DNA of 64,000 bases from Psychrobacter sp. PL19. Lineage in GTDB: Bacteria > Pseudomonadota > Gammaproteobacteria > Pseudomonadales > Moraxellaceae. The translations under genes were made by a program, and so were the position numbers. The DNA lies in contig NZ_JAGING010000001.1 in assembly GCF_017875835.1 (NCBI RefSeq), positions 1,612,001 through 1,676,000 of the forward strand, in the 5' to 3' direction. The notes beneath the pieces were generated by a model that searched no databases, was not told the origin of the DNA, and saw only the letters and a list, made by a program, of their open reading frames with translations. Positions 43,040-54,771 of this stretch are shown here, piece after piece (the stretch's first letter is position 1; every line of letters begins with the position of its first letter).

Positions 43040-44314
43040 ATGCCCCCGACCAAACAAGCTTTAGAGCAACTATCAATAGACTCAGCGGTAAAGTCTGAGC
43101 TTAGTCGCCGACAGTTCTTACGCCAAGTAGGTATAGGTGCAGGGGCAGGTTTGCTGGCAACTCAAGGTATCTCGCAGTCGCTAGCAGCTACAGGCATTAA
43201 TGAAGATAGTAGCGCGCAGCTGACCAAAGATGACCTACCAAGAGTAACGGTTGAAGACAAACCGTCACCACAGGTGCTAGTGCCACGCGCACATTGTATA
43301 GTACCTAATATTGAGACTCGCCTATTTGCCAGCTCCAACGTGGGTAACAATGATGCACGTAACCAGTTGGCACTAGCGCGTATGGCATGTGCGGGGTTTA
43401 AGGTAGCTAACTCGGCTATCGTTAGTCGGCAATATTTGCGCTTTGCTGGGACGGACTCGCAGCGCGCTAGCGATCTACAAAATATTGCGACGGGTGCTAT
43501 AGCTGTGCCCAAACTGCTGCTTGGCGTGCGTGGTGGTTATGGTGCGGTACGTTTATTGCCCATGATAGATTGGCAAACATTAGGGCGCATCATGCAAGAG
43601 TGCGGTACCATACTGGCAGGCTTCAGCGATGTTACCGCTATCCAGTGTGCGCTATTGGCGCAAGGGGGCATGAGTTCGCTTGCCGCCCCGATGCTCTATA
43701 GTGAGTTTGGCAAGAGTAATCCTGATAAGGTCAGTTGTCGGCAGTTTGCCGAAGCGTTAAGCAACCCAAATCTAACTATTGATGTTCAGAGTGCGGCATT
43801 GACCAGTCAGCAGTTACCCACCATTCTTGCGAGTGATGACTCTTATATAATGAGTCAGACCTTAACAGGTACTATTTGGGGTGGTAACCTCAGCGTGGTA
43901 TCGGCACTGACGGGCAGTGATTATCTACCGCGTATTGATGGTGGTATTGTGTTCTTAGAAGATGTCGGTGAGCAGCCATATCGAATTGAGCGCATGCTAT
44001 ATGACCTGTATTTGGCTGGCGTGTTCAAGCGTCAACAAGCCATCGTATTTGGCGCATTATCGGGAGCAGGTGAAGACAGCTATGATGCTCGTTATGATGT
44101 GGCAACCGTTATTCGACAGCTTCATAAGCTAACTGGATTGCCTATTTATAATGGCATGAGCTTTGGTCATATCAGTAAAAAGCAAAGCTTTCCGTTAGGA
44201 GCACGTTGTCAGATCAGCTCTAACACTATCGGTGGCTATCGTTTGACTTTTTCTGATTATCCAACTATCAAAGCAGATAGCATTAATGTTGAAGGCTTGT
44301 GGCAGACAGTTTAG
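43040..44314 (+). CDS. Tat-exported LD-carboxypeptidase (peptidase S66, LdcA-like)
   Basis: 424 residues. A twin-arginine signal, SRRQFLRQVGIGAGAGLLAT, ends near residue 50 (SLAATG). The S66 domain follows: GVRGGYGAVRLLP, GFSDVTAIQ with the nucleophile Ser, FLEDVGEQPYRIERML with the catalytic Glu, and GMSFGHISKKQSFPLG with the catalytic His. It would trim the terminal D-Ala from tetrapeptide muropeptides. Cytoplasmic LdcA has no signal, so this periplasmic version is unusual. No Shine-Dalgarno sequence is visible before ATG 43040; the repeat element occupies that position. Confidence 0.87.
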   Translation: MPPTKQALEQLSIDSAVKSELSRRQFLRQVGIGAGAGLLATQGISQSLAATGINEDSSAQLTKDDLPRVTVEDKPSPQVLVPRAHCIVPNIETRLFASSNVGNNDARNQLALARMACAGFKVANSAIVSRQYLRFAGTDSQRASDLQNIATGAIAVPKLLLGVRGGYGAVRLLPMIDWQTLGRIMQECGTILAGFSDVTAIQCALLAQGGMSSLAAPMLYSEFGKSNPDKVSCRQFAEALSNPNLTIDVQSAALTSQQLPTILASDDSYIMSQTLTGTIWGGNLSVVSALTGSDYLPRIDGGIVFLEDVGEQPYRIERMLYDLYLAGVFKRQQAIVFGALSGAGEDSYDARYDVATVIRQLHKLTGLPIYNGMSFGHISKKQSFPLGARCQISSNTIGGYRLTFSDYPTIKADSINVEGLWQTV

Positions 44315-44353: not shown

Positions 44354-45244
44354 TCACAACAAGTAGTTCTCCTGAACATACTCAATACATAGCTCATAAA
44401 AAGCTTGAGCCGCTGGGGAAATGGATTTATTAGCCAATTTGAAAATACCAATTTGTCTATTTAAAGAAGGGTCGATTAAGCTTATCCAGATCAACTCAGG
44501 CTCATTAGATGGGAAGGCGAGTCTCGGCAAGGTCGTGATACCCAGATCGTTTCTTAATAATGCAAATAAGGAGGTGATATTTTCTATAGTGTAACGAGCT
44601 TTGCGGTTAAGCGCTTCTGCAGGGGTGTTTTCGAGCAGCTTACAGGTGCCATTGTAGATAAATGGCTGGGTCATGAGTTGTTCCCATTTTAGCCCTTGCG
44701 ACTGACTTAATTTACTGTTCAGCTCATTGCTTTTAAGACAGACCACACCAATTGGATCTGATATGAGCAAGGTAAAATCAATATCTGTTTGATTAATACT
44801 GGTACAGTTACCCAGTGCTAAATCCACTTCACCCGTTAGTAATCGATTTGCCACACCAATAGAATTATCATCTATCAACACAATCTCGATATCGGGATAT
44901 TTCTTTGAGTAGGCGACCAATACGCTAGGCAGTAGCTTGGTGACCAGCGATGGCACACTAGCAATTCTTATTTTGCCTTTATCCCCTGATGCTATGGCTT
45001 GCAAATCATCTGCTAACGCTTGATAAACACTCAGAAACTGCTGAATCTTGGGGACACAGCTTTCTCCAAAAGGTGTCAGTGTCGCTTTGTTGCCGACCTC
45101 AAACAAACGCTGATCCAGTGTTTTCTCAAGCTCTCTGATTGATGCCGATATCGCTGCTTGTGAGCGATTGGCACGATTGGCTGCCGCCCGAAATCCGCCT
45201 TCTTCTATCACAAATAAAAAATGTCGTAACTGCTGTAGTTTCAT
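44354..45244 (-). CDS. LysR-family transcriptional regulator
   Basis: 296 residues. The winged helix-turn-helix at the N terminus reads RHFLFVIEEGGFRAAANRAN, RSQAAISASIRELEKTLDQR and LFEV. The C-terminal periplasmic-binding-like effector domain has IRIASVPSLVTKLLPSVL and the DLALGNC segment. It is divergent from the ridA gene with a 185-base gap holding a dyad typical of LysR sites, so it very probably controls the adjacent catabolic run. The inducer is expected to be the pathway substrate or an intermediate. Length is standard. Confidence 0.93.
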   Translation of the reverse strand: MKLQQLRHFLFVIEEGGFRAAANRANRSQAAISASIRELEKTLDQRLFEVGNKATLTPFGESCVPKIQQFLSVYQALADDLQAIASGDKGKIRIASVPSLVTKLLPSVLVAYSKKYPDIEIVLIDDNSIGVANRLLTGEVDLALGNCTSINQTDIDFTLLISDPIGVVCLKSNELNSKLSQSQGLKWEQLMTQPFIYNGTCKLLENTPAEALNRKARYTIENITSLFALLRNDLGITTLPRLAFPSNEPELIWISLIDPSLNRQIGIFKLANKSISPAAQAFYELCIEYVQENYLL

Positions 45245-45297
45245 AGTGGTTAGCGCCTGTGTGCTTATTAATATGATCAGAAATACTATAATCTTAG

Positions 45298-45316
45298 TGA
45301 TAGATTAAATCTATCA
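45298..45316. promoter_or_regulatory. LysR-type binding site (T-N11-A dyad)
   Basis: TGATAGATTAAATCTATCA is a perfect 9-bp dyad around a single A and contains T-N11-A. It lies in the divergent lysR-ridA gap. A weaker dyad GTTAG..CTAAC at 45334-45351 could be the second half of an activation site. Confidence 0.6.
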
Positions 45317-45429
45317 TATTTAATATTTAATTGGTTAGATTAATCACTAACAAGGGCGTAGCATAAATGTCATACCAGATGAACGCTAAGAAATAATTTA
45401 TAAAAACCTCATTCAAAGGAATTGAATCC

Positions 45430-45819
45430 ATGACTACCCAATCAACCAAACAAGCGGTTAAAACGTCACTTTATGCATCTAAATCGCCCCTTGAGTGGGC
45501 AATAACTAGCAATGGCACGTTATATACTGCGCAAATTCCTATTGATGACAATGGAGAGGTAGTCGCTGGTGGTATCGAAGCCCAAGCGCGTCAAACGCTA
45601 AATAACCTGAAGCACACGCTAGAATGTGCCAATACCAGTATGGACTCGGTATTACAGGTATTAATCTATGTTACAGATCGCGAGTATCTAAAAATGGTCA
45701 ATCAAGTCTACGCTGAATACTTTACTGCGCCCTATCCAAATCGAGCTGCCCTAGTCATATCAGGGTTAGCGCGAGAAGAGATGCTGGTAGAGCTAGTGGT
45801 TTATGCGGCAGTACCATAA
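45430..45819 (+). CDS. RidA-family enamine/imine deaminase
   Basis: 129 residues of the YjgF/YER057c/UK114 (Rid) family. It has TAQIPIDDNGEVVAGGIEAQ followed by ARQTLNNLKHTLE, and PNRAALVISGLAREEMLVEL, which keeps the arginine used by active RidA to bind the substrate carboxylate. RidA hydrolyses reactive enamine/imine intermediates released by PLP or oxidase enzymes. It is the first gene of the run facing lysR, with AAAGGA before ATG 45430. The presence of RidA implies that the pathway makes an enamine or imine. Confidence 0.92.
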   Translation: MTTQSTKQAVKTSLYASKSPLEWAITSNGTLYTAQIPIDDNGEVVAGGIEAQARQTLNNLKHTLECANTSMDSVLQVLIYVTDREYLKMVNQVYAEYFTAPYPNRAALVISGLAREEMLVELVVYAAVP

Positions 45820-45915
45820 AATTTAATAGCAGGTCACCTTTTACGCTTTAGTAATTTACAGATTTTATTTATCATTCAACTTTTTACTTGTAAGAAATTA
45901 ACTGAGGACACGACT

Positions 45916-47394
45916 ATGTCAGCCCAAGCATTATCAACCCAAGCACATAAGCAAGATCCACAAAAATCAATTTATATTAATGGTGAATGGCAAGCAGGTA
46001 GCGATACTATTGCTAACATTAACCCGTCAGATACTAGCGAAACCATCGGTAACTATTCCCAAGCAAGCAATCAACAAGTTGAAGATGCTATTGCTGCTGC
46101 TCGCCTAGCGCAGCCAAAATGGGAAAAAACCCCTATGGAAAAAAAGCAGTCAATTCTACAAGCGATTGGCGATGAGATGATTGCCCGTTGTGATGAATTA
46201 GGTACCTTGTTATCACGTGAAGAAGGCAAGCCTTTTGGCGAGGGTCGTGGTGAGATTTATCGTGCTGGACAGTTCTTTCATTATTTTGCCGCAGAAGTAT
46301 TACGTCAAATGGGCGATATTGCTGATTCAGTACGTCCTGGAATCAAAGTAGAAGTCACCCGTGAGGCCGTCGGTGTGGTCGCTATTATCTCCCCTTGGAA
46401 CTTCCCAACTGCCACCGCGGTATGGAAAATTGCCCCAGCCTTAGCCTTTGGTAATAGCGTCATTTGGAAGCCTGCTAACTTAACCCCAGCCAGTGCCGTG
46501 GCCATCGCTGAAATCATTCACCGTCAAGGCATGCCTGAAGGGACTTTTAACCTGCTACTAGGTGGTGGCTCAACGGTCGGCGATGCCTTGATTAACTCAA
46601 AAGACATCGATGCGGTCAGTTTTACCGGCTCTGTACCAACTGGCCGTAAAGTTGCTGCGGCAACCGCCCCTAACTTTGTGCGTTGTCAGTTAGAGATGGG
46701 CAGTAAAAATGCCTTGGTTATCGCTGATGATGCCGACTTACAACTGGCCATCGATTCGGCAGTTGCGGGTGCTTTTGGGGGTTCAGGACAGAAATGTACC
46801 GCCTCTTCACGCTTAATTGTCATGGATGGTATTCATGATGCTTTCGTTGAGGGGGTAGTGGCAAAAATGAAAACCTTAAAAGTGGGTCACGCACTTGATG
46901 AGGGTATTTTTATGGGACCAGTGGTTGATGATAAGCAGCTCGCATCGAACATGGACTGGATCGAAAAAGCCAAGCAAGCCGGTGCTCACTTAGCCTTTGG
47001 TGGCGAGCGTTTAGACATGCCGCATGAGGGTTATTATATGTCGCCAACCTTATTTACTGAGACTGATAGTAGCTGGGATATCAACCAAGAAGAAGTGTTT
47101 GCCCCACTGGCTTGTGTGATGCGCGTGAAGAGTTTAGAAGAAGCCATTGCTATGACTAATGACACCCGCTTTGGTTTGACTGGTGGCATCATTACGCAAA
47201 GCTTGCGTAGCAGTGCGATGTTTAAAGAGCAAGTACAAGCAGGCTGCGTCATGGTCAACTTATCTACTGCCGGTACCGATTATCATGTGCCATTTGGTGG
47301 CCGTAAAGAGTCAAGCTTTGGCCCACGTGAGCAAGGTCAATACGCTAAAGAGTTTTATACCATTGTCAAAACAGCTTATCAAAAAGCGTACTAA
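45916..47394 (+). CDS. NAD(P)-dependent aldehyde dehydrogenase (2-oxoglutarate semialdehyde dehydrogenase-like)
   Basis: 492 residues. SPWNFPTATAVWKIAPAL is the coenzyme/active-site entrance, SFTGSVPTGRKVA the glycine turn, QLEMGSKNALV contains the general-base Glu, and GGSGQKCTASSR contains the nucleophilic Cys. The start YINGEWQAGSD and the GQKCTASSR variant are closest, from memory, to 2-oxoglutarate semialdehyde dehydrogenases. Second gene of the LysR-linked run, 96 bases after ridA, with GAGGA before the ATG. It probably oxidises the semialdehyde produced after the RidA step. The exact substrate is inferred. Confidence 0.87.
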   Translation: MSAQALSTQAHKQDPQKSIYINGEWQAGSDTIANINPSDTSETIGNYSQASNQQVEDAIAAARLAQPKWEKTPMEKKQSILQAIGDEMIARCDELGTLLSREEGKPFGEGRGEIYRAGQFFHYFAAEVLRQMGDIADSVRPGIKVEVTREAVGVVAIISPWNFPTATAVWKIAPALAFGNSVIWKPANLTPASAVAIAEIIHRQGMPEGTFNLLLGGGSTVGDALINSKDIDAVSFTGSVPTGRKVAAATAPNFVRCQLEMGSKNALVIADDADLQLAIDSAVAGAFGGSGQKCTASSRLIVMDGIHDAFVEGVVAKMKTLKVGHALDEGIFMGPVVDDKQLASNMDWIEKAKQAGAHLAFGGERLDMPHEGYYMSPTLFTETDSSWDINQEEVFAPLACVMRVKSLEEAIAMTNDTRFGLTGGIITQSLRSSAMFKEQVQAGCVMVNLSTAGTDYHVPFGGRKESSFGPREQGQYAKEFYTIVKTAYQKAY

Positions 47395-47514
47395 GAGTCA
47401 GTTAGAAAAACATGCTAATAGTGAAGTGTGGTTGGTAAAGTTTGTCCTAGCCACACTGTCTTGGTTTCGAAGTTAGCCGAATATATCTATAAGAAACATA
47501 AAAGGAATTTGAGA

Positions 47515-48504
47515 ATGTACCAAGACCATATCGTCATTGATGGATTACAGTATAGCCATTGGGATCGTGACTATTTCAAAATGCTGCAAGCCAGCGGTAT
47601 TCACGCGGTACATGCCACCTTGGTCTATCACGAAGATTCACGGCAGACTTTGACCCGCTTCGCTGAATGGCATGCGCGCTTTGAGCAAAATTCAGACCTC
47701 ATTCTGCCTGTTTATTCAGTGTCTGATATTGAAACGGCAAAGCAACAGGGCAAAGTGGGTATCTTTTTTGGCGGGCAGAACTGTTCACCGATTGATGATG
47801 AGATTGGCCTTATTAGTGTGATGCGCCGCTTAGGTTTGCTCGTTATGCAACTGACTTATAACAATCAAAGCTTACTAGCAACCGGTTGCTATGAGCAGAA
47901 TGATTCCGGTGTTACTCGTTTTGGTCAGCAGGCGATCGCAGAGATGAATCGGGTCGGTATGATTATTGATATGTCGCACAGCGCTGAGTTCTCAACGCTT
48001 GAGGCAATCGAGATGTCCACGCGACCTATATGTATCAGTCATGCCAATCCGACTACTGCGCATGAAGCATTGCGTAATAAGTCTGATGCCGTTATCAGCG
48101 CTTTAACCAAGGCAGGCGGGCTATTAGGTTTCAGTCTATACCCGTTCCATTTGCCCAATGGTAGCGCTTGCACGCTTGCAGATTTCTGTAGGATGATTGC
48201 TGATTGTGCGGATAAGTATGGGGCTGAGCATTTAGCGATTGGTAGTGACTTGTGCCTCAATCAACCACAAGCAGTACTTGAGTGGATGCGTAATGGTCGT
48301 TGGTCAAAAGCGATGGACTATGGCGAAGGCAATGCCAATAATTCAGGCTGGCCGGATACGCTACCCTGGTTCGCTGGCAAGGACGGCATGGAGAATATCT
48401 ATAACGGACTGCTAAATCATGGTTTCAATGACCAGGATGCTGGAAAAATTATTGGTCAGAACTGGTTCAATTTTCTTGAGAGTGGTATAAAACCCGTCGC
48501 TTAA
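47515..48504 (+). CDS. M19 (renal dipeptidase-like) family protein with altered metal site
   Basis: 329 residues from ATG 47515 (MYQDHIVIDGLQYSHWD), which has AAAGGAA upstream; the open frame from 47428 is not supported. The M19 barrel is clear: IDMSHS (His155), ISHANP (His176) and AIGSDL (Asp245). But the canonical N-terminal H-x-D is L-x-Y (residues 11-13), and the bridging Glu of 'EGG' is Phe85 in FFGGQN. It may therefore hold one metal or none. A similar M19 variant lies in the dimethylglycine/betaine catabolic cluster of Pseudomonas, as I recall. Third gene of the run; role likely catabolic but not simple dipeptide cleavage. Confidence 0.82.
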   Translation: MYQDHIVIDGLQYSHWDRDYFKMLQASGIHAVHATLVYHEDSRQTLTRFAEWHARFEQNSDLILPVYSVSDIETAKQQGKVGIFFGGQNCSPIDDEIGLISVMRRLGLLVMQLTYNNQSLLATGCYEQNDSGVTRFGQQAIAEMNRVGMIIDMSHSAEFSTLEAIEMSTRPICISHANPTTAHEALRNKSDAVISALTKAGGLLGFSLYPFHLPNGSACTLADFCRMIADCADKYGAEHLAIGSDLCLNQPQAVLEWMRNGRWSKAMDYGEGNANNSGWPDTLPWFAGKDGMENIYNGLLNHGFNDQDAGKIIGQNWFNFLESGIKPVA

Positions 48505-48680
48505 AAACCTTTATGCTACAAGCATAGGCAGTATTCATTATTGTATAAGGTTAAAGGTCATTTAAAAGGTCATTTAGATCATCGAAAATTAACGTGTGGT
48601 CAGGCAAAGTAAGGCAAGGAAAAGCTGTTTAGATGCACCCCTAATTTAAATAATGTAACGCTATCATATGGAGCCACACC

Positions 48681-50363
48681 ATGGCCGATTTAAAGGGATT
48701 TAACCGAGACAATGAGCAAGGACGCTCGCATAATGCTGGTAAAGCAGGCGGCGCTTTGAATCCTGTAGAAGACACATCTGATACTTTAGGACTCAAAAAC
48801 CCTGCATTTTGGTACAGCGGCGGGTTTATTATCGCCTTTGTTCTTATGGCGATCTTTGCAGAAGAACAGCTAGCCCAAGTAGTCAATGCAGGCTTTGTTT
48901 GGTCAGCCAAAATCTTTGGCCCTTTTTGGCAAATCTTACTATTAGCGACTTTTATAATTGCTTTAGCAGTCGGGGCTGGCCGCACTGGGCGGGTTATTTT
49001 AGGTAATCTACCCAAGCCTGAAATGGACAACTTCAAATGGATGGCGATTTTATTTTGTACGCTACTGGCTGGTGGCGGCGTCTTTTGGGCAGCCGCTGAA
49101 CCCATTGCGCATTTCGTTTCAGCACCGCCTTTATATGGTGAATCAGCTGATCTACAACAAAGAGCGTTCAATGCGCTATCACAATCATTTATGCATTGGG
49201 GATTTTTAGCCTGGTCGATCGTCGGTAGCTTGACCGCCATTGTGGTTATGCACTTACATTATGACAAAGGCTTGCCGCTCAAACCTCGCACGCTTCTGTA
49301 CCCCATGTTTGGTGAACGGGTGCTTACCGGTCATACCGGCGCAATTATTGATGCTTGCTGTATCGTCGCGGTGGCTGCCGGTACTATCGGTCCCATTGGC
49401 TTTTTGGGTCTACAAACCAGCTATGCCCTCAACACCTTATTTGGTATTCCTGATACGTTTACCACTCAACTTATCATTATCATATTTGCTATTGCCCTTT
49501 ATACCCTCTCGGCGATTAGTGGGCTTGCGCGTGGTATGCAAATACTCAGTCGCTTTAACGTCATCCTAGCAGTAGCATTGATGTTATTTATTCTAATATT
49601 TGGGCCCACCAACTTTATTGTCAATGGCTATATTCAAGGTGTTGGCACTATGATCCATAACTTTATCCCGATGGCAACTTATCGCGGTGATGAAGGTTGG
49701 CTTGGTGGTTGGACGGTATTCTTTTGGGGTTGGTTCTTGGGTTATGGCCCGATGATGGCAATCTTTATTGCTCGTATCTCCCGTGGTCGTACCATTCGTC
49801 AGCTGATCACAACGGTCTGTATTATTGCCCCACTAGTCACTTGCTTTTGGTTCACGGTGGTTGGTGGTTCAGGCCTAGCATTTGAGATTGCCAATCCGGG
49901 TAGTGTCAGTACGGCTTTTGAAGGCTTTAACCTTCCTGGTGCGTTGTTAGCAATCACACAGCAGCTGCCGTTTCCTTTGATTACTTCCTTACTGTTTATC
50001 ATTTTGACCATGGTCTTTATTGTGACTACCGGTGATTCAATGACTTATACCATCAGTGTGGTTATCAGTGGTGAGCACGAGCCCAACGCTATGATTCGCA
50101 CCTTTTGGGGCATCATGATGGGGGTAACGGCTATCGTTCTAATCTCGCTTGGTGCAGGTGGCGTGACTGCTTTGCAATCCTTTATCGTCATTACCGCTGT
50201 GCCGGTGTCTTTTATTCTGCTTCCATCGTTGTGGAATGGCCCAAAAATTGCCCAGCAAATGGCTTACGACCAAGATCTTTATCGTCCTAACCGGGTCGAG
50301 ACTAATCATCGCATCGCTGAGGAAAAGCGTACCAAAGAAACCGTTACCAAAAAGATCGACTAA
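48681..50363 (+). CDS. BCCT-family transporter of the LysR-linked cluster
   Basis: 560 residues, about 12 membrane segments. It is only distantly related to the two tandem BCCT proteins. The signature is GGGVFWAAAEPIAHF instead of GIGLVYWGTAEPLYHF; the motif TVFFWGWFLGYGPMMAIFIA precedes RISRGRTIRQL. A 45-residue hydrophilic N-terminal tail precedes the first helix. Imports a trimethylammonium or similar zwitterion by family rule; the changed signature suggests a different substrate from the osmolyte-type copies. Fourth gene of the run, 176 bases after the M19 gene, with its start at ATG 48681. Confidence 0.92.
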   Translation: MADLKGFNRDNEQGRSHNAGKAGGALNPVEDTSDTLGLKNPAFWYSGGFIIAFVLMAIFAEEQLAQVVNAGFVWSAKIFGPFWQILLLATFIIALAVGAGRTGRVILGNLPKPEMDNFKWMAILFCTLLAGGGVFWAAAEPIAHFVSAPPLYGESADLQQRAFNALSQSFMHWGFLAWSIVGSLTAIVVMHLHYDKGLPLKPRTLLYPMFGERVLTGHTGAIIDACCIVAVAAGTIGPIGFLGLQTSYALNTLFGIPDTFTTQLIIIIFAIALYTLSAISGLARGMQILSRFNVILAVALMLFILIFGPTNFIVNGYIQGVGTMIHNFIPMATYRGDEGWLGGWTVFFWGWFLGYGPMMAIFIARISRGRTIRQLITTVCIIAPLVTCFWFTVVGGSGLAFEIANPGSVSTAFEGFNLPGALLAITQQLPFPLITSLLFIILTMVFIVTTGDSMTYTISVVISGEHEPNAMIRTFWGIMMGVTAIVLISLGAGGVTALQSFIVITAVPVSFILLPSLWNGPKIAQQMAYDQDLYRPNRVETNHRIAEEKRTKETVTKKID

Positions 50364-50467
50364 GCGAGTTATTAATATAGCCAATAATTTATTTGCCGAT
50401 TAACGCTATTAGCTACAGGCATCAAACAAGTTGTTGGCTTAACCCATTATTTAAGGTGGTAATTAAC

Positions 50468-52189
50468 ATGCAACACAGCCCATTAATCAATAATAATTCA
50501 GTCAATAACAAGCTAGACGCAGTCAGCTTACGTACCCCTGATTCTCGCACTCCGGATGTGGTGATGCATTCTGAGCGATTAGGTGCAATGCACCAAACCC
50601 GTATTAGCTTTGTGCGTACGTTACTGCGTAAAATTGACAAAGAGAGCTGGACGTTGAGCAAACATCTTTGGGATTTAGATAAAGATGGTTATGGGCAAGT
50701 TATTTATCGCTTACAAACCCCTGAACACGTTTATCACTTGGTGGTGTTCTGCAATCAGATCGCTGATGAGGAGCGTAATGATCGCGTGATTGCGCAAAAG
50801 TGGGACGTTACTTTTGCTCTAGTCTATGGCGAAATAGGCGAGGAGCTGCTGGCCAATCTAAAAGCCAACGTGCCGCTACAAGAAGCGGGCCGCAACTCTA
50901 ATATGGTCATGGTGCTCGCGCGTGCCAATAAAAGTGTCCGGGTTTTTGATCATATTGTCAGCTCGCTTGCCGATGGACAGCAGCCTGACCTTGATGTGTT
51001 GGCACAAGTGGGTTATATCCTGCGTACCACTGCGGTCTATGGCAACGGTAAATTTGGTATTTTTGACTTTAAGCCTTTAAATCATAGCGAAGATTTTAAC
51101 CAGTCTTTTCGCGCGCAGATGTGTGCGGTTTATTTGCTGCGAGAATTCAGCCTTGATTGGGTTGATTATTTGGCTGAGCAAAAGGGTGGCAGCAAGGCAG
51201 TCAGCTTACATCCAGAAATTAAGCGCTATTTAGGTATTGGTAATGCCACTGGCCTTGGTATGGCGCCTTATTTAATTAATCATCCTTGTGTTGTTGATCA
51301 ATGGCTAAGCGCTCGTGAAAGTGGGCTACAAGCGGTATTGGTTTGTGATATTGAACCTAAAAAAGTAGCAATATTTACAAACCTAACGAGCCGTGCGATT
51401 CAGCACTTCTCTGAAGTGGTGACTATTAACGAGCCACAAATCGTACTAAATAGTAGGGTGGTTAATGAGTTAACGGCGTTACAGAACAATCTCACAACTA
51501 AACTTGAAGCCTGCATCACTTGGGCGGATTTTTTACAGCGTAACGATCATCTGAGTTTTGAGAGCCAAGAGGTCATGATCTCTTGCCTGATGGAGCTTTA
51601 TCCTGAGCGCGTTGATCCATTTTCTGGGCAAGCCAATGCTGACGAGAGTATGTCGCTACCCAGTGGTAAGGTTGTTCAAGACCTTATCGCAGTATTAGAA
51701 GCGCGTTATCAGTGGGCAATCAGCATTGATTTTGCCGCAGTAGATAATGTCTATTGGTTTTGGTATCGCTCTGAGGATAAAGAGGAGCCAAGAATGGGCG
51801 TGCGTGGACAAGAACATGGCGATGACAAAGAGTTTCTATTGGATATTGGCAGACAAGCGAATAATTTGTACTTAGCATTACAACAAGCCGATTCGCAGCA
51901 ACTTCTTTCTGAATTTATATTAAGCCAGCCAAAGTATCGTTCAATTGCTCGGCGTGTCTGGACCATGGGCCATAAAAAAATGGGTGATATCCAGATTAAC
52001 GTGTTGCAAAAGACCGCATTACCGATGCATTTATTACGCTGTAAATTGTCTATGTTTGGTGCGACTAAGTTTGATCCTAGATCGGATCGCTGGGTACGAG
52101 TCACGCTATTCCAAGGGGCGCCTTTATTCAAGGAAGTACACAGTGATGAGTGGCTATTTCCTCTTTTACCAAAAATAAATAAGCTATAA
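50468..52189 (+). CDS. Unassigned 573-residue cytoplasmic protein of the LysR-linked cluster
   Basis: The start at ATG 50468 follows AAGGTGG by 8 bases; an upstream frame to 50393 is unsupported. No signal peptide or membrane segment. I recognise no family. Visible features are SFVRTLLRKI then WTLSKHLWDLDKDGYGQVIY near 35-70; a TAVYGNGKFGIFDF block near 200; GIGNATGLGMAPYLINHP near 260-280; and a C-terminal WRS-like WFWYRSEDKEEPR segment near 435. The invariant-looking Gly/Asn/Pro block suggests a catalytic or nucleotide-binding loop. It sits between the BCCT gene and a second unknown, in tight co-direction (55 bases to the next), so it is probably an enzyme of the same pathway. Confidence 0.8.
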   Translation: MQHSPLINNNSVNNKLDAVSLRTPDSRTPDVVMHSERLGAMHQTRISFVRTLLRKIDKESWTLSKHLWDLDKDGYGQVIYRLQTPEHVYHLVVFCNQIADEERNDRVIAQKWDVTFALVYGEIGEELLANLKANVPLQEAGRNSNMVMVLARANKSVRVFDHIVSSLADGQQPDLDVLAQVGYILRTTAVYGNGKFGIFDFKPLNHSEDFNQSFRAQMCAVYLLREFSLDWVDYLAEQKGGSKAVSLHPEIKRYLGIGNATGLGMAPYLINHPCVVDQWLSARESGLQAVLVCDIEPKKVAIFTNLTSRAIQHFSEVVTINEPQIVLNSRVVNELTALQNNLTTKLEACITWADFLQRNDHLSFESQEVMISCLMELYPERVDPFSGQANADESMSLPSGKVVQDLIAVLEARYQWAISIDFAAVDNVYWFWYRSEDKEEPRMGVRGQEHGDDKEFLLDIGRQANNLYLALQQADSQQLLSEFILSQPKYRSIARRVWTMGHKKMGDIQINVLQKTALPMHLLRCKLSMFGATKFDPRSDRWVRVTLFQGAPLFKEVHSDEWLFPLLPKINKL

Positions 52190-52244
52190 ATGCTGGATGG
52201 GCTGACACCATCACCTTCATAAGTGTCATAGAGAGGAGTAAGAC

Positions 52245-52970
52245 ATGATCGTATCGCATAATGAAATTGTAACGACAGTGAATAAAGCCTTTTTGGGCAT
52301 GCAGCGTGAAGTAGGTGAGGCTGATTTGATTGCTTCTATGGTGGCAGAGCTACAGATGGCGGGCCTCAATGGTATCTTACACTTTAATAATGCCAGTCCT
52401 TTTATCCTATCTGAACGTGATGTCGCTATTGATATAGTCTCACAAGGCGAGAGTGAAGTCCGCTTAGATCTACATGGCAGCAGTCTGGTCTGTCATCTAC
52501 CGGTAGTGATGGACTATGCCCTTGAAAAAATGGGCAAGCGCGATCATTTTAAAATCTATTTGCACAACTGTCACAATCGCTGGTTGGCCTATAGCGAGTT
52601 GGTAAATCTCGCTGCAAAAGGTATTGCTTGTCTGGCCAAATGGGATAATGGCAGCGCACCCAAGCATACAATATTTACTTTAGATAAAAGATTTGTTTAT
52701 CCTGATCTGTACTTTTTTAATGAGGTACAGAACAACTATAGTACTAATGATATGGTTATTGAGCTGTCGACCGCTAACTTTGATATCGAAAAAGACATTC
52801 AACATTTTGATCGTAAAGTATCAACAGATGAGCTGTTTGCAACCCATCAACGTGCATGGAAAGAAGGGATCTATGTCTGCGATGAGCAGTGGGCGACACT
52901 CAAAAAAAGTGCCGCTGCGATTTTGGTAGAAAATAGCGAGGCATCAAGTAAAGGGGCAGGGGGCGTATAG
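52245..52970 (+). CDS. Unassigned 241-residue protein (possibly DUF3726-like)
   Basis: Start at ATG 52245 behind AGAGGAG. The N terminus, HNEIVTTVNKAFLGMQREVG followed by EADLIASMVAEL, is helical and resembles the DUF3726 family of uncharacterised proteins, from memory. A central beta-rich part includes VRLDLHGSSLVCHLPVVMDY and the end is KESIYVCDEQW-like (KEGIYVCDEQWATLKKSAA). No catalytic motif, signal peptide or membrane helix. It ends the run, so it is a likely partner or chaperone of the 573-residue protein encoded 55 bases upstream. Family call uncertain. Confidence 0.75.
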   Translation: MIVSHNEIVTTVNKAFLGMQREVGEADLIASMVAELQMAGLNGILHFNNASPFILSERDVAIDIVSQGESEVRLDLHGSSLVCHLPVVMDYALEKMGKRDHFKIYLHNCHNRWLAYSELVNLAAKGIACLAKWDNGSAPKHTIFTLDKRFVYPDLYFFNEVQNNYSTNDMVIELSTANFDIEKDIQHFDRKVSTDELFATHQRAWKEGIYVCDEQWATLKKSAAAILVENSEASSKGAGGV

Positions 52971-53298: not shown

Positions 53299-54225
53299 AT
53301 GATTGTCCGGCACAAACCCAATGCCCTTAAGCTATTTTTTACCCTTCGTGGCTCTATCCTCCCGAAGATTTATCTCCAAATTTTGCTGATCACCTTGCTG
53401 AGTGCTGTAATAACCAGCATTCAGCATTGGTTTCCCAGTTTTTTCTCCTCCTATAGTACCGCTCCCTTCACTTTACTTGGGATTACTCTATCGCTGTTTC
53501 TTGGCTTTCGTAACAATGCGAGCTATCAACGTTGGTGGGAGGCTCGAGGCTTATGGGGCCAGCTGGTATTTGATGCCCGCAGCCTGACTCGGCAAGTACT
53601 CTCGTTTATGGATGAGGAGACTGAGAATGGACGGCACACCCAGCGGTGCATCATTCACCTTGCCATCGCTTTTACTCATGCACTTAGGCATCGACTTCGT
53701 GACACCTCGCCTTGGCAGGACGTCGATCGCTTTGTAGAGTCAGAACACCACCTCAGCATGCGTCAGGCGCAAAATTTGCCTGAATATTTAATGCGGCTGA
53801 TGGGCAAAACGCTTGGCTATAGTCGGCGTCAGCGTTTATTTTCGGAGCTTATGGTACAAAATATGGACGAACGTCTGACTTCTATGACTGTAGTTTTGGC
53901 TGCCTGCGAACGCATTCAGAATACGCCATTGCCGTTTGCTTATACGCTATTGGTACACCGTACTACTTATCTATATTGCTTTATGTTGCCTTTTGGCTTG
54001 GTGTCTTCTTTAGGCTGGGCGACTCCTTTAATTTGTGCTGTGATCGCCTATACTTTTTTTGGTCTAGACGCGCTCAGTGAAGAGCTAGAAGAGCCTTTTG
54101 GCTTGGCCGCTAACCATCTGCCACTTACCGCTTTGTCACGCACTATCGAAATCAATTTATTGGAAGCACTGGGAGAAACGGATCTGCCACCTGCTATTGT
54201 TTCTAAAGAGGGTTGGTTACAATAG
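53299..54225 (+). CDS. Bestrophin-family ion channel (YneE/UPF0187)
   Basis: 308 residues. The first helix begins ILPKIYLQILLITLLSAV; the family signature GITLSLFLGFRNNASYQRWW follows, with EARGLWGQLVFDARS. Paired C-terminal helices contain LPFGLVSSLGWATPLICAVI and the FFGLDALSEELEEPFG motif. Bacterial bestrophins form pentameric channels in the inner membrane, shown to pass cations for one Klebsiella homologue; family role here is unknown. Independent of the upstream cluster by a 328-base gap. The stop codon is the start of a 14-bp tandem repeat. Confidence 0.93.
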   Translation: MIVRHKPNALKLFFTLRGSILPKIYLQILLITLLSAVITSIQHWFPSFFSSYSTAPFTLLGITLSLFLGFRNNASYQRWWEARGLWGQLVFDARSLTRQVLSFMDEETENGRHTQRCIIHLAIAFTHALRHRLRDTSPWQDVDRFVESEHHLSMRQAQNLPEYLMRLMGKTLGYSRRQRLFSELMVQNMDERLTSMTVVLAACERIQNTPLPFAYTLLVHRTTYLYCFMLPFGLVSSLGWATPLICAVIAYTFFGLDALSEELEEPFGLAANHLPLTALSRTIEINLLEALGETDLPPAIVSKEGWLQ

Positions 54226-54260: not shown

Positions 54261-54381
54261 CTAGAAATGCTGAGCACAGCTTAGGGCTTATTGTTTCCAT
54301 GCATTCGAATAGACGAAAAATCTCTTATGCTTTATCTAGCATTGTTATACCACTACAAACTATCTGAAATTGGATAAGACG

Positions 54382-54771
54382 ATGATTCAAACTATTATCC
54401 ATTATTTTCTACATTTTGGCATGCCGCTGATTATCGCCTATATGTTCTTTCCTGACGACTATAAACGAGTCTATTTGATCCTATTAGCAACCATGTTGGT
54501 AGATTTAGACCATTTGTTAGCCACGCCTATCTTCTCACCCAATCGCTGTAGCATTAATTTTCATCCGCTCCATACTTATTATGCAATGGCAGTCTATACG
54601 GTTATGTTATTTTTGCCGAAGCCCTATAAAATAATTGGTTTAGGATTATTACTACATATGCTGACTGATTTAAATGATTGTGTAATGACCTATCTTAATT
54701 GTCCCCAGTGTTTGAATGAGGCTCCTGCCCGTGAATTAGTAGAGTGGTTTGTCAGAGCCACTAAGTTTTGA
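54382..54771 (+). CDS. DUF6122-like membrane protein
   Basis: 129 residues from ATG 54382; a TTG at 54370 is less likely. Four hydrophobic segments surround conserved polar motifs: LLATMLVDLDHLLATPIFSP, RCSINFHPLHTYYAM and LLLHMLTDLNDCVMTYL. The VDLDHLLA and FHPLH motifs and their acidic/His pattern match the DUF6122 family and resemble YdjM-type metal-dependent membrane hydrolases (LexA-regulated YdjM family). The catalytic role is unproven. Inner membrane. Confidence 0.72.
   Translation: MIQTIIHYFLHFGMPLIIAYMFFPDDYKRVYLILLATMLVDLDHLLATPIFSPNRCSINFHPLHTYYAMAVYTVMLFLPKPYKIIGLGLLLHMLTDLNDCVMTYLNCPQCLNEAPARELVEWFVRATKF

Follow-up and report, generated by a model that had tools for sequence, protein, structure and literature searches.

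A LysR-linked gene cluster of Psychrobacter with RidA, ORF573 and DUF3726 as a candidate pathway for homarine or a near betaine

The window analysed here is a stretch of 64,000 nucleotides from Psychrobacter sp. PL19 (contig NZ_JAGING010000001.1, positions 1,612,001 to 1,676,000 of the forward strand), a host with a single-contig genome of 3.12 Mb. In this window, six co-directional genes stand opposite a gene for a LysR-type regulator and encode a RidA-family protein, an aldehyde dehydrogenase (ALDH), an M19-fold protein, a BCCT transporter, a protein of 573 residues here called ORF573, and a DUF3726 protein (Table 1). Judged from its protein families and gene content, this cluster probably, if by a modest balance, serves to degrade homarine (N-methylpicolinate) or an N-methylpyridinium betaine close to it, by a pathway in which RidA would replace the Ldh_2 oxidoreductase of related clusters. 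A preliminary description of the same DNA had presented the cluster as a LysR-controlled unit for one betaine-like compound, degraded through an imine and a semialdehyde. This interpretation was partly right: the cluster is a conserved, LysR-linked unit with betaine-type uptake, and is most likely a RidA variant of a kind of pathway described in 2026.

Conservation of the cluster and its two versions

The gene order, strands and coordinates (44354–52970) given in the preliminary description were confirmed, and its reading of the seven genes as a single unit is borne out by their presence in all 35 named-genome loci compared (34 from Psychrobacter, where the nearest named relatives of ORF573 are found, and one from Vibrio ostreicida; L047, a partial locus on a 4-kb contig, was left out), some of the genes being broken by frameshifts or deletions. 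A profile search of the same loci returned ALDH, M19, ORF573, DUF3726 and RidA in 35/35 and Ldh_2 in none, and LysR is present in every one of them, in 34 within 8 kb at more than 100 bits.

The gap between the LysR and RidA genes holds a perfect 19-bp palindrome, TGATAGATTAAATCTATCA, predicted to be the LysR operator, which encloses the T-N11-A core TAGATTAAATCTA (45301–45313); the dyad pointed out earlier is therefore real. The palindrome is kept with zero to three mismatches in all 34 Psychrobacter gaps, and base shuffles give an expectation of 0.02 cases with three mismatches or fewer in total over 40 gaps. Its recurrence is beyond chance, and since the gap sequences are related, it is to be read as a conserved footprint and not as a set of independent events. 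A weaker relative (four to five mismatches) lies about 100 bp before RidA in four of six Vibrio or Vibrio-class gaps; the remaining two, with six mismatches and, in V. ostreicida, eight, are not better than shuffles, which average 7.7–8.0. Promoter and terminator scans gave results near chance (18 found against a mean of 19.3, and 12 against a mean of 8.4 with a standard deviation of 2.8).

ORF573 itself is spread widely. Its family counts at least 7,164 matching database proteins, out of 7,998 scored candidates, and was detected in 53 of 105 genomes of the genus (the window's own included), 11 of 38 relatives, 29 of 398 genomes drawn phylum-wide, 53 of 385 alphaproteobacteria, and 168 plasmid records, from Phaeobacter and Ruegeria through Sinorhizobium. 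Among the hosts are genomes of 1.2–1.4 Mb (G696, G779, G539 and G744) with 28–36% G+C in the fetched stretches, which appear to resemble SAR11-type ocean bacteria; labels such as "Vibrio-class", "Marinobacter-like" and "SAR11-sized" for the genomes with G numbers derive from kinship, the names of similar proteins, the size of the genome and G+C. On pSymB of Sinorhizobium meliloti (L084 9010–12456), a distant trio of ORF573-like, DUF3726-like and M19 genes (ORF573 identity 27–28%) is accompanied by an IclR regulator, an ABC transporter and an aminotransferase.

Outside Psychrobacter and V. ostreicida, 86 loci were compared, 73 from genomes and 13 from plasmids, the latter hand-picked from the 168 records, seven of them after two versions of the cluster had been noticed. 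Six fragmentary genomes were left out of the 53 alphaproteobacterial ones (G569, G576, G579, G586, G590 and G823), and the counts exclude loci L001–L011, L048–L076 (short duplicates), L047, L090, L164 and L165. DUF3726 was found at no more than 8 kb from ORF573 in 83 of the 86 loci and M19 in 80, and both odd proteins are joined in a single 814-aa gene in Mesorhizobium sp. 131-2-1 (L086 8944–11388), so that ORF573, DUF3726 and M19 form the core of the cluster, in agreement with the central place proposed earlier for the two odd proteins. The co-occurrence of these proteins with ALDH, BCCT and RidA, which is complete in Psychrobacter and V. ostreicida, extends to the other loci only in part: ALDH lies within the same distance in 44 of the 86 loci, BCCT in 22 and RidA in 18. 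At the cut-offs used (close ALDH, more than 700 bits within 6 kb; Ldh_2, more than 250 bits, and RidA, more than 90 bits, within 8 kb; all three profiles were built from the same loci they scored), 41 of these loci have a close ALDH, together with LysR in 32, BCCT in 21 and a betaine-type ABC binding protein in five. In about half of the loci, the core is joined by ALDH, LysR and a betaine transporter, and the presence of BCCT here and of glycine-betaine-type ABC transporters in some relatives supports the betaine-like substrate of the preliminary description.

Two versions of the cluster can be distinguished, with homologous ALDH, M19, ORF573, DUF3726 and LysR in the RidA version and in the alphaproteobacterial Ldh_2 version. 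In the clusters of Ruegeria, Aminobacter, Shinella, Aliiroseovarius, Roseateles, Mesorhizobium and Tritonibacter, DUF3726 is followed by an Ldh_2 oxidoreductase, in the place of which a RidA gene is found in those of Psychrobacter, Vibrio, Pseudomonas MPC6, Phaeobacter and Sulfitobacter; RidA is consequently not the fixed member of the set that it had been taken for. The two genes exclude each other: among the 41 loci with a close ALDH, 18 have Ldh_2 without RidA, 16 have RidA without Ldh_2, none has both and seven have neither (Fisher p 2.6e-6, kinship not removed), and without 12 hand-picked plasmid loci the corresponding numbers are 11, 11, none and seven (n = 29). No Ldh_2 was found in the window's own genome, nor, at E ≤ 1e-40, in 15 of 16 further gammaproteobacterial genomes (seven Psychrobacter, three of the Marinobacter-like family f17 and five of the Vibrio-like family f29), the remaining one, G083, having one match of 33%.

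The switch between both versions has taken place repeatedly. On an ORF573 tree, of a quick kind and with long branches, the distribution of RidA and Ldh_2 requires no fewer than four changes; within a well-supported branch, the RidA row L093 is sister to five Ldh_2 rows. The approximately unbiased (AU) test rejects a single RidA clade (p 4.7e-6); since the rows held outside this clade include L150 and the outgroup, the weight is put on the count of changes instead. The position of the gene differs as well, as RidA precedes ALDH in Psychrobacter and Vibrio, follows DUF3726 in Caballeronia and in f17 loci, and lies on the opposite strand, near LysR, in roseobacter loci.

A candidate route through an imine

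The nearest solved relative of the Ldh_2 profile is DpkA, a delta1-piperideine-2-carboxylate reductase (E 3.3e-68; the second-best match has E 7e-51). DpkA is described as an imine reductase and has been used for the reductive methylamination of an oxo acid, according to the available part of PMC6237917. That a predicted imine reductase and a predicted imine hydrolase take each other's place suggests that the compound handled at this step is an imine, and on this central inference, drawn from the sequences, depends the route proposed here. RidA retains R105, in the motif PYPNRA, in 43 of 45 aligned sequences; the equivalent arginine of TdcF (Arg105) is required for imine hydrolysis, as stated in the part available of PMC4433059.

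The route would begin with the import of the betaine by BCCT, after which ORF573, with the truncated, Ldh_2-like DUF3726 protein, would open the ring between C5 and C6 to give an N-formyl-N-methyl C5 semialdehyde. ALDH would oxidise the aldehyde, the M19-fold protein would remove the formyl group to leave the N-methyl enamine or imine of 2-oxoglutarate, and RidA would hydrolyse this N-methyl imine to 2-oxoglutarate and methylamine. Where Ldh_2 takes the place of RidA, this DpkA-like enzyme would reduce the imine instead, and the N-methylglutamate so formed would be converted to glutamate by N-methylglutamate dehydrogenase (Mgd). With the ring opened between C5 and C6, every gene of the cluster would have a task, and the imine and semialdehyde steps of the preliminary description would both be retained.

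The best NCBIfam models for ALDH are those of 2-oxoglutarate semialdehyde (2,5-dioxovalerate) dehydrogenases, at 482 and 477 bits, below the cut-offs of these models, followed at a distance by betaine-aldehyde (393 bits), L-piperidine-6-carboxylate (312 bits) and 2-hydroxymuconic semialdehyde (312 bits) dehydrogenases. In the M19 protein, with the zinc-ligand positions taken to be those of renal dipeptidase, H-x-D reads L-Q-Y (the leading residue being L in 79 of 80 aligned sequences) and the bridging Glu is absent, while H155, H176 and D245 are kept in 80/80; by its sequence, the protein has lost part of the dinuclear-zinc ligand set of the dipeptidases. Its closest solved relative is 2i5g (E 1e-55, 320 residues aligned), which we take to be PA5396 from Pseudomonas aeruginosa, an M19-type amidohydrolase whose cluster context differs from that of the protein described here. 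Compared with 8zw8, BCCT reads W-F..Y instead of W-W..W in transmembrane helix (TM) 8 and V instead of Y in TM4. It thereby departs from the aromatic box of glycine-betaine BCCT proteins, given as W/W/Y in TM4 and W/W/W in TM8 in the available part of PMC12093977. In Psychrobacter faecalis and genome G016 (L013 8993–9882; L004 3332–4221), BCCT residues 229–493 are missing and ORF573 and DUF3726 are intact.

Both proteins that the preliminary description had left unassigned are predicted to act in the first step, and only one of them remains an orphan. ORF573 has no Pfam or NCBIfam family, so far as these models go matches no known oxygenase or flavin family, and shows no known cofactor motif, and its AlphaFold2 model, a confident one (pLDDT 87.8, pTM 0.89), has no PDB match at E ≤ 0.001. 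Two matches to solved sequences, with E 0.11 and 0.75, were taken as chance, and a UniRef name (on P0125) presenting it as a Zorya ZorC EH-domain protein was discarded, as Pfam gives no such domain. Neither ORF573 nor DUF3726 matches PHROGs. The ATG at 50468, giving 573 residues, was preferred as its start in Table 1 over the TTG at 50393 of the list of open reading frames (598 residues); in the database, the window's own protein also has 573 residues and its best relatives mostly 563–590.

The DUF3726 protein, on the other hand, is, by its predicted model, a truncated relative of the Ldh_2 oxidoreductases, with 241 residues compared to the 313–361 of Ldh_2, DpkA, YiaK and AllD. This kinship is drawn from sub-threshold Pfam matches to Ldh_2 together with the predicted fold match, and not from hhalign, which alone gave a probability of 1.8% against Ldh_2 proteins and was not relied on. 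In that weak register of hhalign, DUF3726 has M-A-G at the place where the Ldh_2 proteins compared here invariably have S-H-G, and it is likely a non-catalytic subunit. It matches no solved sequence, and a literature search found no paper on it.

Several observations concern the condition of ORF573 and of the cluster in individual hosts. In Psychrobacter sp. FME6 (L022 7778–11524), ORF573 is broken after residue 68 by a stretch of about 2 kb, and one in-frame TAG is reported for that of G388 (L148, family f29). Psychrobacter sp. TAE2020 holds two diverged copies of the cluster (L032 and L041), each with its own LysR and with ORF573 77% and 85% identical to that of the window. In Pseudomonas sp. 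MPC6, where the cluster is carried on a conjugative plasmid, a further BCCT gene is found nearby with two mandelate-racemase-family genes and its own LysR (L080 13312–18234), a group that resembles a second betaine pathway.

Homarine and the alternatives

Homarine is common in marine invertebrates. It is also an osmolyte of marine diatoms and is drawn down fast by the model roseobacter R. pomeroyi, according to the part of PMC12817926 that was available. A literature search on hom genes returned citations and metabolite reports only. The pathway presented in 2026 is said to be encoded by an operon homABCDER, with five enzymes and a regulator, and to yield N-methylglutamate. The roseobacter-type cluster (L077: ALDH, M19, ORF573, DUF3726, Ldh_2 and LysR) would presumably fit that operon gene for gene, and the earlier statement that no described pathway has this set has probably been overtaken, because the relatives of the cluster look like the homarine pathway, as far as the accessible part of the literature describes it. 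The cluster in the window would differ from this operon in having RidA and no Ldh_2, and no full-length MgdC/SoxA gene is found in its genome. Mgd takes part in homarine catabolism, as reported in the available part of PMC13390433, and owing to its absence the cluster is placed as a variant and not as a member of the homarine pathway.

A possible link to Mgd is suggested by the surroundings of the Ldh_2 versions. Genes for sarcosine-oxidase-type subunits, a family that includes Mgd and whose model cannot separate MgdC from SoxA, adjoin them in Aliiroseovarius (all four subunits), in G151 and, with two or three subunits in the stretch shown, in Ruegeria, Shinella and Roseateles, and in both Ruegeria and Aliiroseovarius a helix-turn-helix gene lies between these genes and LysR. 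This arrangement resembles the tmaR–mgd layout described in PMC13390433, to the extent that its text was available. At more than 300 bits and within 8 kb, sarcosine-oxidase-type genes were found in none of 16 RidA versions and in one of 18 Ldh_2 versions (L081). A search of 62 genomes outside the genus found an MgdC-type gene within 8 kb of ORF573 in five (G151, G570, G654, G696 and G779), which by a plain coordinate count are two Ldh_2 versions, three cores with no Ldh_2 nearby and no RidA version. Of 128 genomes with ORF573, 80 were searched for MgdC/SoxA, which was detected at E ≤ 1e-60 in 0/18 Psychrobacter, 1/27 gammaproteobacteria in all and 52/53 others. Gammaproteobacterial hosts, from which RidA versions were read, mostly have no Mgd; lineage and version are confounded here, and MgdC/SoxA-type genes are present in the alphaproteobacteria with RidA versions. 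A GMAS-type synthetase (TIGR03105) exceeded its cut-off in eight of 26 genomes searched and in two of the 17 gammaproteobacteria among them, but not in the window's genome.

The trigonelline (tgn) pathway of Acinetobacter baylyi also degrades an N-methylpyridinium carboxylate, by means of ring opening, an ALDH and a hydrolase, with a LysR regulator, in likeness to the cluster described here. Its ring-opening pair consists of a flavin monooxygenase and a reductase, no Pfam domain of which was found in any of the seven proteins.

Besides the lack of Mgd in the window's genome, several points weigh against assigning the cluster to homarine and against the proposed chemistry. We infer the substrate and all chemical steps, and the identity with the operon of 2026 is presumptive. 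A weak point is the cleavage between C5 and C6, which would need oxygen, when no known oxygenase or flavin family was found for ORF573. In 45 of the 86 loci ORF573 has no close ALDH (Ldh_2 is present in 14 of the 45 and RidA in one), and because of this the core may serve several substrates, opening or hydrolysing related compounds; some of these loci adjoin genes named by eye as trimethylamine-methyltransferase-like and homocysteine-methyltransferase-like, or class III aminotransferases. The MgdC-type genes of G654, G696 and G779 lie near cores with neither ALDH nor Ldh_2 within 8 kb, and MgdC/SoxA-type genes, one of them 18 kb away, are also present in G083, a gammaproteobacterial RidA version. 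Seven loci with ALDH have neither RidA nor Ldh_2, although of these L150 holds a 28-residue RidA-like remnant (tblastn), L120 ends 261 bases past ORF573 and the ORF573 of L134 is fragmented. Furthermore, two Rid subtypes are involved; the alphaproteobacterial versions carry another one, their Rid genes may be mere neighbours, and their genomes also hold MgdC/SoxA-type genes. Finally, three genomes with RidA versions (G119, G135 and G219) have an Ldh_2 of 37–42% elsewhere, and G355 holds one RidA locus and one Ldh_2 locus.

A pathway of the same kind could be unconnected with homarine and serve a different quaternary or N-methyl compound, such as trigonelline, proline betaine, a carnitine-like compound or pipecolate betaine, a possibility that we regard as doubtful but worth keeping in view. 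BCCT and glycine-betaine-type ABC transporters have a broad range of betaine substrates, the two diverged copies per genome in TAE2020, G119, G135, G219 and G355 could mean two substrates, and the distant relative on pSymB belongs to a soil and root bacterium. However, several Ldh_2 versions adjoin Mgd-family genes, which fits N-methylglutamate as the end product, and ALDH is nearest to the C5 2-oxo-semialdehyde dehydrogenases and not to those for betaine-aldehyde or L-piperidine-6-carboxylate. An improbable course would avoid the need for an oxygenase by a hydrolytic opening between N and C6 to 2-(methylamino)muconate semialdehyde, which ALDH would oxidise to 2-(methylamino)muconate and RidA would convert to 4-oxalocrotonate in the manner of 2-aminomuconate deaminase, itself a Rid-family enzyme. 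RidA does match 6izh, named 2-aminomuconate deaminase (E 4.5e-8), but 41 of the 48 solved sequences that it matches outscore this one, the C5 model of ALDH (482 bits) stands well above that for 2-hydroxymuconic semialdehyde (312 bits), and the Ldh_2 alternative and its Mgd-family neighbours would be left unexplained. Slightly more improbable still is that RidA is a mere damage-control protein that quenches 2-aminoacrylate, co-transcribed and unused by the pathway: Rid genes are frequent, their subtypes vary between lineages and they commonly protect pyridoxal 5'-phosphate (PLP) enzymes (available part of PMC4433059), yet Pfam finds no PLP-enzyme family among the seven proteins, RidA is kept in 35/35 loci and at differing positions in Psychrobacter and Vibrio compared to Caballeronia and f17 loci, and it never occurs together with Ldh_2 in the 41 loci with ALDH.

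Neighbouring genes and implications

The cluster adjoins, on the side of the LysR gene, a gene for an S66 peptidase (LD-carboxypeptidase; 43040–44314, + strand) with an N-terminal Tat-type signal (TIGR01409, 21.6 bits); a match to this peptidase is absent from all loci L001–L047. Downstream, a bacterial bestrophin (53299–54225, + strand; PF25539, E 2.2e-108) and a DUF6122 protein (54370–54771, + strand; E 4.2e-41) are encoded.

Table 1. Genes and predicted operator of the cluster, in window coordinates
Feature	Position	Strand	Family or remark
LysR-type regulator (predicted cluster regulator)	44354–45244	-	PF03466, PF00126
Perfect 19-bp palindrome, predicted LysR operator	45298–45316		in LysR–RidA gap
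RidA-family protein, predicted imine hydrolase	45430–45819	+	PF01042
ALDH, predicted C5 semialdehyde oxidase	45916–47394	+	PF00171
M19-fold protein, predicted hydrolase; H-x-D and bridging-Glu metal ligands missing	47515–48504	+	PF01244
BCCT transporter, cation box altered	48681–50363	+	PF02028
ORF573, 573 aa, predicted first-step enzyme	50468–52189	+	no Pfam/NCBIfam family
DUF3726 protein, 241 aa, predicted shortened Ldh_2-fold partner	52245–52970	+	Pfam DUF3726

A broader proposal has two parts that would have to hold together. ORF573 and DUF3726 may form a new class of ring-opening enzymes for N-methylpyridinium carboxylates, with a fold new to the PDB, and the gammaproteobacterial RidA branch may lead to methylamine and 2-oxoglutarate, bypassing N-methylglutamate, and may have been gained or lost several times. 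This joint proposal is put forward tentatively, as possible rather than probable.

Should the cluster degrade homarine, its nitrogen would end up in intracellular glutamate where the reductase and Mgd are used, or in methylamine, maybe released, where RidA is used, so that the same compound would give different end products in two versions of one pathway. A function would thereby be provided for the family of ORF573, with its thousands of database entries and no Pfam hit, for DUF3726, and for a branch of M19 proteins that annotation pipelines call "membrane dipeptidase".

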